Part shown: positions 1,250 to 9,116 of the stretch, one piece after another
Numbering within the stretch: the stretch's first letter is position 1
Layout: every line of letters starts with the position of its first letter
DNA from: a virus
Length of the DNA: 21,769 nt
Reading direction: 5' to 3' (one strand)
IMG/VR virus record: IMGVR_UViG_3300017748_000171
Span: 1-21,769 of that record
The notes under the pieces: model-generated
What the model was told of the DNA's origin: nothing
Database searches by the model: none
Seen by the model: only the letters and a program-made list of their open reading frames with translations
Position numbers and translations under genes: made by a program

Positions 1250-1297
1250 AAAAAAAACCCGCGGGAGCCAATTCGTGGGAGTGCGCTCTACCGCGGG
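1250..1297 (-). terminator. Strong leftward rho-independent terminator
   Basis: Read on the minus strand, CCCGCGG (1297-1291), a TA bulge and GAGC (1288-1285) pair with GCTC (1268-1265) and CCGCGGG (1264-1258) around a 16-base loop. Eight T residues follow (1257-1250). The 11 GC-rich pairs make it one of the strongest hairpins in the window. It ends the unit of the 59-residue gene at 1366-1545 and stops just before the HNH start codon. Confidence 0.85.
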
Positions 1298-1311
1298 CTA
1301 ACGTCCTTCTC

Positions 1312-1327
1312 AAGGGATACTACCCTT
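1312..1327 (-). repeat. Short hairpin in the 3' untranslated region before the terminator
   Basis: On the minus strand AAGGG-TAGTAT-CCCTT forms a five-pair stem with a six-base loop. It lies between the stop of the 59-residue gene and the strong terminator at 1250-1297. Together they form a structured segment of about 75 bases that could be a 3' UTR or the body of a small RNA. Confidence 0.4.
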
Positions 1328-1365
1328 TTGAAGCTAATGCCTTAAACCAACGTTGTCAACTCCCC

Positions 1366-1545
1366 CTAGTGAAAAGGATCTTTAGGAAAACCTTCGTTGC
1401 GCGCCTCTTGTACAAAACTGGCAAGAGTCTTTAATAACATTTCCGGGTCTTCCAGATGCTCCGTAAGAAGATCTGCAATTTTTCTTATATCTTTCTTCCA
1501 AATCTCGCTAAATGATTTATTTAAAACGGGTTTTAATTCTGACAT
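1366..1545 (-). CDS. Small helical protein, unknown function
   Basis: The 59-residue product is mostly predicted helix with many charged residues (SEIWKKDIRKIADLLTEHL, then LLKTLASFVQEARNEG). No Cys, signal peptide or membrane segment is present. The ATG at 1545 is chosen over a GTG at 1572 because AAGGAG (1560-1555) lies nine bases upstream. It forms a complete unit, with its own promoter at 1580-1608 and a strong terminator at 1250-1297. The promoter is back to back with that of a helix-turn-helix gene, so this product may belong to the same regulatory switch, for example as an anti-repressor or host-takeover peptide. That role is inference only. Confidence 0.7.
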   Translation of the reverse strand: MSELKPVLNKSFSEIWKKDIRKIADLLTEHLEDPEMLLKTLASFVQEARNEGFPKDPFH

Positions 1546-1579
1546 GTAATATTTCTCCTTATTTGAATACACATTAAAT

Positions 1580-1608
1580 ATGATATTAGAGATAAAATCA
1601 AGTTGTAA
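1580..1608 (-). promoter_or_regulatory. Leftward sigma70-like promoter of the 59-residue gene
   Basis: The minus strand shows TTACAA (1608-1603), a 17-base spacer and TATCAT (1585-1580). This places a start site about 30 bases before the AAGGAG ribosome-binding site. The -35 hexamer is the reverse complement of the -35 used by the opposing promoter. Confidence 0.55.
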
Positions 1609-1631
1609 CTCACATCATTTTCTTATATTAT
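1603..1631 (+). promoter_or_regulatory. Rightward sigma70-like promoter of the HTH gene
   Basis: TTGTAA (1603-1608), a 17-base spacer and TATTAT (1626-1631) fit a sigma70 promoter. Transcription would begin near 1638, and the HTH start codon is at 1662 with AGGA at 1651-1654. The -35 hexamer is the same six base pairs that serve the leftward promoter. Confidence 0.55.
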
Positions 1632-1661
1632 TTGTGTTTAACCAACCAACAGGAAAACCTA

Positions 1662-1826
1662 ATGGAATTACATCACGCGGCAAAATATTCTTTTGAAATA
1701 GTCACGGCTGTCCGCTATGCTCGAAACGTAGAAAAACGCTCTGTTAAATGGATAGCAAAACATTATGACATCCCCATTGATACCATTAGAGATTGGTTGT
1801 ATCGAGGTAGACGAGCCAACGATTGA
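1662..1826 (+). CDS. Small helix-turn-helix DNA-binding protein
   Basis: The 54-residue basic protein consists almost wholly of one helix-turn-helix. Residues 27-51 read RSVKWIAKHYDIPIDTIRD followed by WLYRGRR: helix WIAKHYD, turn, then recognition helix TIRDWLYRGR. It resembles homeodomain-like or sigma region 4-like HTH peptides and probably binds DNA as a regulator. The ATG at 1662 follows AGGA at 1651-1654; an in-frame TTG at 1632 overlaps the -10 region and is rejected. Its gene is the first of a short rightward unit that diverges from the 59-residue gene across a shared -35 box. Control of that intergenic region is the simplest hypothesis. Confidence 0.75.
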   Translation: MELHHAAKYSFEIVTAVRYARNVEKRSVKWIAKHYDIPIDTIRDWLYRGRRAND

Positions 1827-2022
1827 CGACGAAGCGCAGTTATTTTGCTGTTCACGTTGCGATAAACGGTTTTTAGCTTACGTGGAGGTAATAAACGGAG
1901 AAACCGACAAAATGCCGGTAGTTGAGCTAATGCTGTGTACCGATTGTGAAGAATCGTTGAATGAGGCTAATCGTTACCTTCTTTGGCTGGATTGGAACAA
2001 TGCTGAGGATAAGATCCATTAG
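1765..2022 (+). CDS. Cys-rich (zinc-ribbon-like) small protein, start uncertain
   Basis: The frame encodes up to 85 residues with a FCCSRCDKRF knuckle and a later LCTDCEESL pair, together a CxxC...CxxC zinc-ribbon pattern. The C-terminus is acidic and aromatic. The annotated ATG at 1765 lies 62 bases inside the upstream HTH gene and has only a weak GGAT before it. Translation might instead begin near 1820, where GAGGT precedes an in-frame ATT, or by coupling to the HTH stop. The Cys region downstream of 1820 is the safe part. The gene ends the rightward HTH unit, and its stop codon lies in the loop of a terminator. Confidence 0.6.
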   Translation: MTSPLIPLEIGCIEVDEPTIDDEAQLFCCSRCDKRFLAYVEVINGETDKMPVVELMLCTDCEESLNEANRYLLWLDWNNAEDKIH

Positions 2023-2107
2023 TCTTATCTTTTAGCTTTTTATACTCAAGAATAAAAGCAATAAGCTCTTCTATATCGGTATCCTCAAGCTCTACTGTTA
2101 TTTTCAT
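1967..2107 (-). CDS. Small acidic protein, unknown function
   Basis: This 46-codon frame starts at an ATG with AAGGA five bases upstream. The N-terminal half (MKITVELEDTDIEELIAFIL) looks like a beta strand followed by an acidic amphipathic helix, as in many small phage proteins. Its start overlaps the end of the 56-residue gene at 2085-2255, so it fits the leftward operon. The C-terminal 18 residues overlap the convergent Cys-rich gene, which lowers confidence. No family is recognised. Confidence 0.5.
   Translation of the reverse strand: MKITVELEDTDIEELIAFILEYKKLKDKTNGSYPQHCSNPAKEGND
2008..2041 (+). terminator. Weaker rho-independent terminator of the HTH unit
   Basis: GATAAGA (2008-2014) pairs with TCTTATC (2023-2029) around an eight-base loop that contains the stop codon of the Cys-rich gene. 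A T-rich tail TTTTAGCTTTTT (2030-2041) follows. The stem is AT-rich, so termination may be incomplete. Confidence 0.6.
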
Positions 2108-2255
2108 TCTTGTCCTTAATTTCTTCTCTAAGTTTAATCATTTCTGACCAAACCTTAGCTTTATCGACAGAAGACTTGGAAACGTTTTCAGATTCCATCT
2201 CTTTCTTTAATTTTAAGAGAGCCTCTTTCATACCCTCTTCTATCGAGCTACTCAT
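2085..2255 (-). CDS. Small charged helical protein, unknown function
   Basis: The 56-residue product is highly charged and helical (IEEGMKEALLKLKKEMESEN, later MIKLREEIKDKNENNSRA). Its ATG overlaps the stop of the upstream ribbon-helix-helix-like gene in an ATGA junction. GGAG lies eight bases before the start, a good ribosome-binding site. A short coiled-coil role is possible. No family is recognised, but the coupling and ribosome-binding site support a real gene. Confidence 0.65.
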   Translation of the reverse strand: MSSSIEEGMKEALLKLKKEMESENVSKSSVDKAKVWSEMIKLREEIKDKNENNSRA

Positions 2256-2482
2256 CTTGTAAACTCCGGGCGGGGCCGACCTTCTTCTATGCGTTTGTTT
2301 TCCATTTCTTCTAAAAGGTATGCTTTGTCTTTCTGACTAAGGTTTTCCCCTACCCAGTAATCAAAGATAAGCCTAAGCTGCCCGCTAAGCGTGCGCCCCT
2401 CTACTTTAGAAACGATGTATAGCTGGTCATACACTTCACGCGGAAGCAAAACCGATTTCCATTTGTTAGTATCCAAAACCAT
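2252..2482 (-). CDS. Ribbon-helix-helix-like (Arc/CopG-type) protein
   Basis: The 76-residue product begins with a strand-like segment WKSVLLPREVYDQLYIVSK followed by GRTLSGQLRLIFDYWV. This resembles the strand-helix-helix of Arc/CopG-type DNA-binding proteins, which act as dimeric regulators. The tail is charged. The ATG at 2482 has AGGAG only one base upstream. A TTG at 2476, two codons later, has the same AGGAG at a seven-base distance and may be the true start. A promoter within the end of the polymerase gene (2506-2533) can express it apart from the replication operon. The fold call comes from sequence pattern alone. Confidence 0.65.
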   Translation of the reverse strand: MVLDTNKWKSVLLPREVYDQLYIVSKVEGRTLSGQLRLIFDYWVGENLSQKDKAYLLEEMENKRIEEGRPRPEFTR

Positions 2483-9039: not shown

Positions 9040-9059
9040 AGGTCTTCTCCTCGTGGTTA

Positions 9060-9078
9060 AAGTGCGTTTTAAGCACTT
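9060..9078. promoter_or_regulatory. Inverted repeat in the divergent early promoter region
   Basis: AAGTGC (9060-9065) and GCACTT (9073-9078) flank a seven-base AT-rich centre. The repeat lies at the start of the predicted leftward transcript and overlaps the possible -35 regions of the rightward promoter. An operator bound by a dimeric phage or host regulator is the likeliest reading; an RNA hairpin in the leader is the alternative. Confidence 0.45.
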
Positions 9079-9103
9079 GAGGAACACACTATAATCATAT
9101 AAT
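9067..9103 (+). promoter_or_regulatory. Rightward promoter of the SNF2-like gene
   Basis: Two perfect TATAAT boxes occur, at 9090-9095 and 9098-9103. The first has TTTTAA (9067-9072) 17 bases upstream. The second has TTGAGG (9077-9082) at 15 bases. The -35 matches are modest, so a regulator or a phage factor may help. The start codon follows at 9126. Confidence 0.5.
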
Positions 9104-9116
9104 ATTAGATATGCAA
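9088..9116 (-). promoter_or_regulatory. Leftward promoter of the replication operon
   Basis: The minus strand has TTGCAT (9116-9111), a 17-base spacer and TATAGT (9093-9088). Transcription would start near 9081, about 42 bases before the ATG at 9039. It overlaps the rightward promoter, so the two may compete. Confidence 0.55.

Follow-up and report, generated by a model that had tools for sequence, protein, structure and literature searches.

A conserved divergent gene pair and a recurrent CACA promoter element in marine phages as a candidate regulator module

The KorA type of the IncP plasmids (RK2) exemplifies small helix-turn-helix (HTH) proteins that repress the operon encoding them together with several further operons, acting at short operators in the promoters (PMC4889941, PMC3199767). 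In phages, one DNA-binding protein can act at many genome sites, as does the repressor of the mycobacteriophage L5 type (PMC9283540). Here we analyze a 21,769-base stretch, positions 1 to 21,769 of the IMG/VR virus record IMGVR_UViG_3300017748_000171 and hereafter called the window, in which an HTH gene and a gene of an orphan family, DP, are transcribed away from each other. The module shares with KorA the small HTH protein and the action, here putative, at its own and several other promoters. However, KorA has a greater length, recognizes a palindrome and acts together with KorB, whereas the phage module has just CACA as its recurrent element, within the promoter spacer, and an orphan acidic protein as partner. 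With the L5 type and its stoperators it has in common a single (putative) phage DNA-binding protein and sites across the genome, but the L5 protein belongs to temperate phages, in which it acts as immunity repressor, and its sites block elongation as well, whereas the sites reported here are embedded in promoters and a search for integrases was negative. The lambda cI/cro control region likewise has close divergent promoters with a small HTH protein on one side; in lambda, however, both sides encode a DNA-binding protein, whereas no DNA binding is predicted for DP. Finally, the predicted fold of the HTH protein and weak profile matches recall sigma-70 region 4 or the ECF sigma4 domain, but the protein is free-standing with 50–60 residues, has no sigma region 2 and stays below the curated cut-offs. 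The parts of the module are of known kinds, namely a small global repressor and a divergent autoregulated promoter. For the two families, the promoter-embedded element and the pairing, no match exists in the libraries searched and none was found in a brief literature check.

Among GenBank phages there is no near match to the window. Its DNA polymerase is 50–58% identical to those of DSL-LC04, 023Pt_psg01 and HTVC023P, and since the genomes of phages with this related polymerase measure about 60 kb, the window probably represents only part of one. DSL-LC04 and the HTVC023P-type phages (HTVC023P, 023Pt_psg01) share the related DNA polymerase and the replication gene block with the window, whereas neither HTH nor DP was found in the stretches of them that were searched. 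The close relatives fall into clade A (the window and L082–L084), clade B (L085–L088 and L091) and clade C (L089, L090, L092 and L093), and the divergent layout is identical throughout the three clades. A tRNA search of the window found none and an Rfam search gave nothing reaching the gathering threshold; two snoRNA matches inside the module block were discarded as chance. Directly 3' of the DNA polymerase gene, a CopG-like ribbon-helix-helix gene (2252–2482, minus strand) is kept in nearly all related phages and has a near-consensus promoter (TTGAAA-N16-TATAAT at 2533–2506, 11/12). The features of the module are collected in Table 1.

Table 1. Positions of the genes, promoter boxes and candidate elements in the window
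Feature	Position	Strand	Basis or remark
Predicted small RNA, about 75 nt, with a strong intrinsic terminator at its end	1250–1326	-	fold z = -2.3; one compensatory pair
-10 box TAGCTT of the separate promoter behind the DP gene	1331–1336	-	conserved hexamers, spacing
-35 box TTGACA of the separate promoter behind the DP gene	1354–1359	-	conserved hexamers, spacing
DP-family gene, 59 aa (stop codon 1366–1368)	1369–1545	-	profile family; 72 aa in sister clades
Left copy of the element (CACAT), immediately downstream of the minus -10 box	1570–1574	+	conserved in relatives
Minus -10 box TTTAAT, better-supported reading, N17 from TTGATT	1573–1578	-	TATTAT in L010/L206/L016
Minus -10 box TATCAT, first reading	1580–1585	-	TAACAT, TCTCAT or ATATGA in relatives
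Minus -35 box TTGATT, better-supported reading	1596–1601	-	TTGA here in 12 of 13 related divergent regions
Plus -35 box TTGTAA, HTH promoter	1603–1608	+	sequence, alignment of relatives
CACA, candidate operator, middle copy, 2 bp after the -35 box	1611–1614	+	enrichment upstream of HTH; recurs genome-wide
Plus -10 box TATTAT, HTH promoter	1626–1631	+	sequence, alignment of relatives
TGTG, right arm of the CACA-N18-TGTG inverted pair that flanks the -10 box	1633–1636	+	12 of 25 clusters
HTH gene, 54 aa, predicted three helices, sigma region 4-like fold	1662–1826	+	profiles, structure model
Cys-rich (zinc-ribbon-like) gene, overlapping HTH in frame +1	1765–2022	+	start ATG 1765 or ATT 1822
Helicase promoter TTGAGG-AACACACTATAATCATA-TAATAT, same class	9077–9105	+	ahead of the helicase gene

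A preliminary description of this DNA had read the block ATGATA-N17-TTGTAA-N17-TATTAT as two promoters that use one -35 box. The block itself is exact in the window (ATGATA at 1580–1585). Under a rule of at least 5/6 matches in both -10 boxes and at least 4/6 in the plus -35 box at N17 spacing, it is the single qualifying site in the whole window, and the rule is satisfied by 5 of 2000 shuffles of the 116-nt intergenic region and by none of 60 shuffles of the window. A looser promoter scan by itself gave chance level (5 found versus 5.3 expected). The shared -35 box was rejected on conservation. In 13 related divergent regions, aligned on the plus TTG, the plus promoter matches the consensus on average at 3.5/6 (-35) and 4.8/6 (-10), whereas the minus promoter with the shared box (TTACAA/TATCAT) reaches only 1.8/6 and 3.5/6, compared with 4.2/6 and 4.1/6 for TTGATT and a -10 box at N17. 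Given these scores, the relatives favor two adjacent -35 boxes (AATCAA-G-TTGTAA, 1 bp apart), and the arrangement is better read in this way. TATCAT may still serve as the minus -10 box in the window, because TTTAAT does not have the usual A at the second position. Under either reading the promoters would be too close for two polymerases, which should exclude each other as originally proposed. The intergenic region is 71–79% identical between clades A, B and C, with ACACATTA, AATCAAGTTG, CTCACA, TATATTAT and TGTG near-constant and the part from the end of the left block to AATCAA variable. At the same clade distances the four-fold sites of HTH are 61–69% identical, a weak comparison with only 13–18 sites. 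A CRP-like site at TCACAT was dismissed by eye, as no TGTGA stands at the right distance.

The gene on the minus side had been described as coding for an unknown protein, and DP indeed has no meaningful family match in Pfam, PHROG, PADLOC or PDB. DP is an orphan family of proteins of 57–88 residues; the clade A members have lost about 13 residues compared with those of clades B and C. Acidic proteins make up 23 of the 26 members (mean charge -5), and no member matches an HTH family above the cut-off. The structure model consists of two helices (pLDDT 77.6), a PDB fold search with it returned nothing, and DNA binding is not predicted for DP. Peptide patterns had recovered 3 close copies of the 59-residue protein, as if the partner were not kept in relatives. 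This was overturned by a profile built from seven members and then iterated over 25,418 ORFs, which matched 122 ORFs (49 distinct) with a gap in E from 2e-7 to 0.37; most groups pass in round one or enter in round two, and the L015/L219 group enters in round three. All 122 matches are in loci with HTH. Counted by locus, 121 have both genes, 22 HTH only, none DP only and 89 neither, most loci having been collected through HTH and DP-only loci being detectable only among the others, mainly the 80 found via the DNA polymerase. Thus, the synteny expected of a divergent pair is borne out in relatives. Among the distinct cases, only the L159/L185 lineage does not have DP upstream of HTH on the opposite strand; there it lies 3 kb from HTH on the same strand. 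In several phages other genes stand between the two (0.2–2.2 kb). Judged from these comparisons, the divergent layout is real and older than the window alone suggests.

On the plus side, the proposed HTH and Cys-rich genes are both present as overlapping ORFs that look like an operon, and no toxin family was matched. Weak matches to HTH_28 (PF13518) occur in 19 of 27 HTH members at E ≤ 0.1 and to Sigma70_r4_2 in 12 of 27 (best 1.7e-4, below the cut-off). The protein of the window itself scores 18.7 bits against HTH_28, for which the curated cut-off is 25, and 13.1 bits against sigma-70 region 4 (PF08281/PF04545; cut-off 25.7). As no family reaches its curated cut-off, the statement that the protein belongs to no known repressor family stands. 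The structure model has three helices (pLDDT 79.7). In a Foldseek search it ranked ECF sigma region 4 at the top (TMq 0.66, probability 0.99, but E = 0.2), and KorA (5clv) was among the matches (TMq 0.63). All 27 members are basic (charge +1 to +7). The modeling supports a DNA-binding HTH protein with a sigma4-like shape rather than a member of the sigma family. Searches for HTH in the phage collection found none and those in bacterial genome contigs none that was confirmed. The alternative start ATT 1822 of the Cys-rich gene overlaps the HTH stop, and relatives have ATG there; in several distant relatives the overlap (1816–1830 in the window) is ATGA or similar. Since the ATG was changed to ATT or ATA in the clade of the window, the gene needs a non-standard start or ATG 1765. 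The weak terminator assigned to this unit is present in the window as GATAAGA/TCTTATC at about 2003–2030, but it is not conserved in the sister clades as judged by eye.

The opposite unit had been thought to end in a very strong terminator. A strong minus-strand hairpin with eight T is found there (about 1250–1298), but a promoter of its own precedes it, and it need not close the 59-residue unit. Between the DP stop and the hairpin, TTGAC[AT]-N17-TAGCTT is invariant while its spacer varies (TTGACAAAAAAATCTAAAAGTTC, TTGACTATCCCAGATGAAGCCAT and others), although TAGCTT is a poor -10 box; GTAGTA..CCCTTGAGAAGGA and then the hairpin follow downstream, and one pair of the stem is changed on both sides in L173. 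The ATG of an endonuclease gene directly follows the T run in clades A–C and in L159/L185. A role of the hairpin as endonuclease leader only is weakened by L006/L007, which have the promoter and the hairpin without that gene. Given this and the conserved promoter, a separate RNA of about 75 nt seems more likely than a terminator of the DP unit. An extra ORF of about 65 residues (MIRCFYSGKRTTAKR...; MIRC ORF) is situated between DP and the small-RNA promoter in L089, L087, L093, L159 and L185 and is absent from the window.

The promoter region contains CACA in a recurrent setting. Upstream of HTH, TTG-N5-CACA...TANNNT is found in 11 of 25 clusters versus 0.03 expected from shuffles, TCAA-N8/9-CACA in 13 (0.26 expected) and CACA-N17..19-TGTG in 12 (shuffles: mean 0.20, maximum 2), counts that are not fully independent given the relatedness of clusters W, B, C and L006. 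The left CACAT is conserved in clades A, B and C and in L006, L010, L206, L191, L015, L217 and L063; a perfect CACA is missing at the HTH promoters of the last three. Where DP has a promoter apart from that of HTH (L106, L110, L102, L096 and L143), this promoter also carries the element, for example as TTGTAATCCACATAAAACTCATATATATT in L106, TTGTAATGCACAT in L110 and TTGCCATTCCACAT in L096/L143. Genome-wide, TTG-N5/6-CACA-N9..12-TANNNT occurs at 27 sites, closely related contigs included, in 323 kb of HTH-bearing phages versus 3 sites in 370 kb of HTH-less relatives, whereas permuted cores give 3–9 and 1–9 sites, respectively. A relative of 61.9 kb has 7 such sites, each with an ATG no more than about 100 nt downstream, and 5 of them combine near-consensus TTGAC -35 boxes with CACATA. 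In contig G001 (locus L010), five near-consensus TTGAC-..CACATA..-TANNNT promoters stand on the minus strand of 27767–32888, each before a small unknown gene; this is likely the early region of the 62-kb relative. The window has two promoters of this class, at 1603 and 9077, and TTG-N5/6-CACA also precedes the homologous helicase gene in G001, G003, G005, G007, G009 and G011. Directly before the -35 box of the helicase promoter is an inverted repeat (AAGTGC-GTTTTAA-GCACTT, 9057–9080). Its arms co-vary in relatives (AAGTGT/ACACTT, AAGTTC/GAACTT, AAGAGTG/CACTCTT) and could therefore be a second operator or a leader hairpin at the 5' end of the minus replication operon.

Our preferred interpretation, in which we have about even confidence, is that HTH is an autoregulating repressor of a few early promoters and DP its co-regulated partner. 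A small regulator module of lytic-type marine phages would then be controlled from this region, with two back-to-back sigma-70 promoters and adjacent -35 boxes driving the HTH/zinc-ribbon operon rightward and the DP gene leftward. The 54-residue HTH protein most likely binds the CACA after the -35 box, which has its counterpart in the TGTG that follows the -10 box. It would keep RNA polymerase away and so repress its own promoter, probably also the divergent one, as well as a few further early promoters with CACA such as that of the helicase. DP, being small, acidic and helical, would be co-regulated and is perhaps an antagonist of HTH. Two traits of autoregulating small global repressors are seen: profiles and model agree on an HTH DNA-binding fold, and the same DNA element recurs at its own and several other promoters. 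Several sites have near-consensus -35 boxes, normal spacers and the element inside the polymerase footprint, which favors repression over activation; optimal spacers of 16–18 bp together with good -35 boxes argue for a repressor and not for a MerR-type activator. Still, a specific operator would be expected to have a core longer than 4 bp. In a more specific and clearly tentative version, a sigma-region-4-like HTH protein of about 54 residues would read a CACA tag 2–3 bp after the -35 box and control promoters phage-wide, antagonized by DP. If true, the circuit would serve lytic phages as a switch of timing or dosage and not of lysogeny.

The best-surviving alternative, a minority view to which we still give some weight, is that the element is read by another factor, either a host regulator or a different phage protein, with HTH being one target of this factor and acting elsewhere. 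It would agree with the generic nature of the HTH fold match and with the two HTH-bearing contigs (G012 and G014) that have no site of the strict pattern. Moreover, HTH and the element are confounded by phylogeny, as the phages with and without HTH may belong to different clades. On the other hand, the element reaches its most elaborate form (CACA-N18-TGTG) at the HTH gene in 10–12 clusters, which is the usual mark of autoregulation, and it is largely missing from HTH-less relatives with a similar DNA polymerase. That HTH acts as an activator or a sigma-region-4-like recruiter at promoters with weak -35 boxes (TTGTTT, TTGTAA) appears unlikely to us. The Sigma70_r4_2 and ECF sigma matches and the low mean -35 score of the HTH promoters speak for such a role, but several other sites have near-perfect TTGAC boxes with normal spacers that should need no help, and the position of the element within the polymerase footprint also disagrees with it. 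Even less probable is an accessory cassette with its own promoter, of the anti-CRISPR/Aca-like counter-defence or toxin-antitoxin kind, with DP as effector and HTH as controller. Small orphan acidic proteins beside a small HTH controller and the genes inserted between both in several phages would fit. However, an Aca gene follows its acr gene in one operon, whereas HTH, compared by layout only, is first in its operon and divergent from DP; PADLOC gives two weak matches and nothing more, and the element is also present at the helicase and other promoters. The bistable lysis-or-lysogeny decision module of the preliminary description deserves hardly any credence, since mutually exclusive divergent promoters and a conserved gene pair agree with it but there is a single predicted DNA-binding protein instead of the two mutually repressing ones of the lambda type (the DP model being two-helical), no match to tyrosine or serine integrases (PF00589, PF00239), and hence neither integrase nor resolvase, was found in the HTH-bearing contigs tested (one of 61.9 kb, the others fragments), and a lytic life style is described for HTVC027P, which belongs to the related HTVC023P type (PMC12753301).

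Overall, the module looks like an undescribed phage-wide control circuit and not like a two-state switch between lysis and lysogeny. It comprises two small conserved protein families without a match of meaningful score in Pfam, PHROGs and PADLOC. For abundant uncultured marine phages, hardly anything is known of the transcription programmes; if our interpretation is right, the module offers a signature of promoters, a family of regulators and an orphan family of partners, all testable from DNA alone, and early promoters would become predictable in phages without a cultured host.
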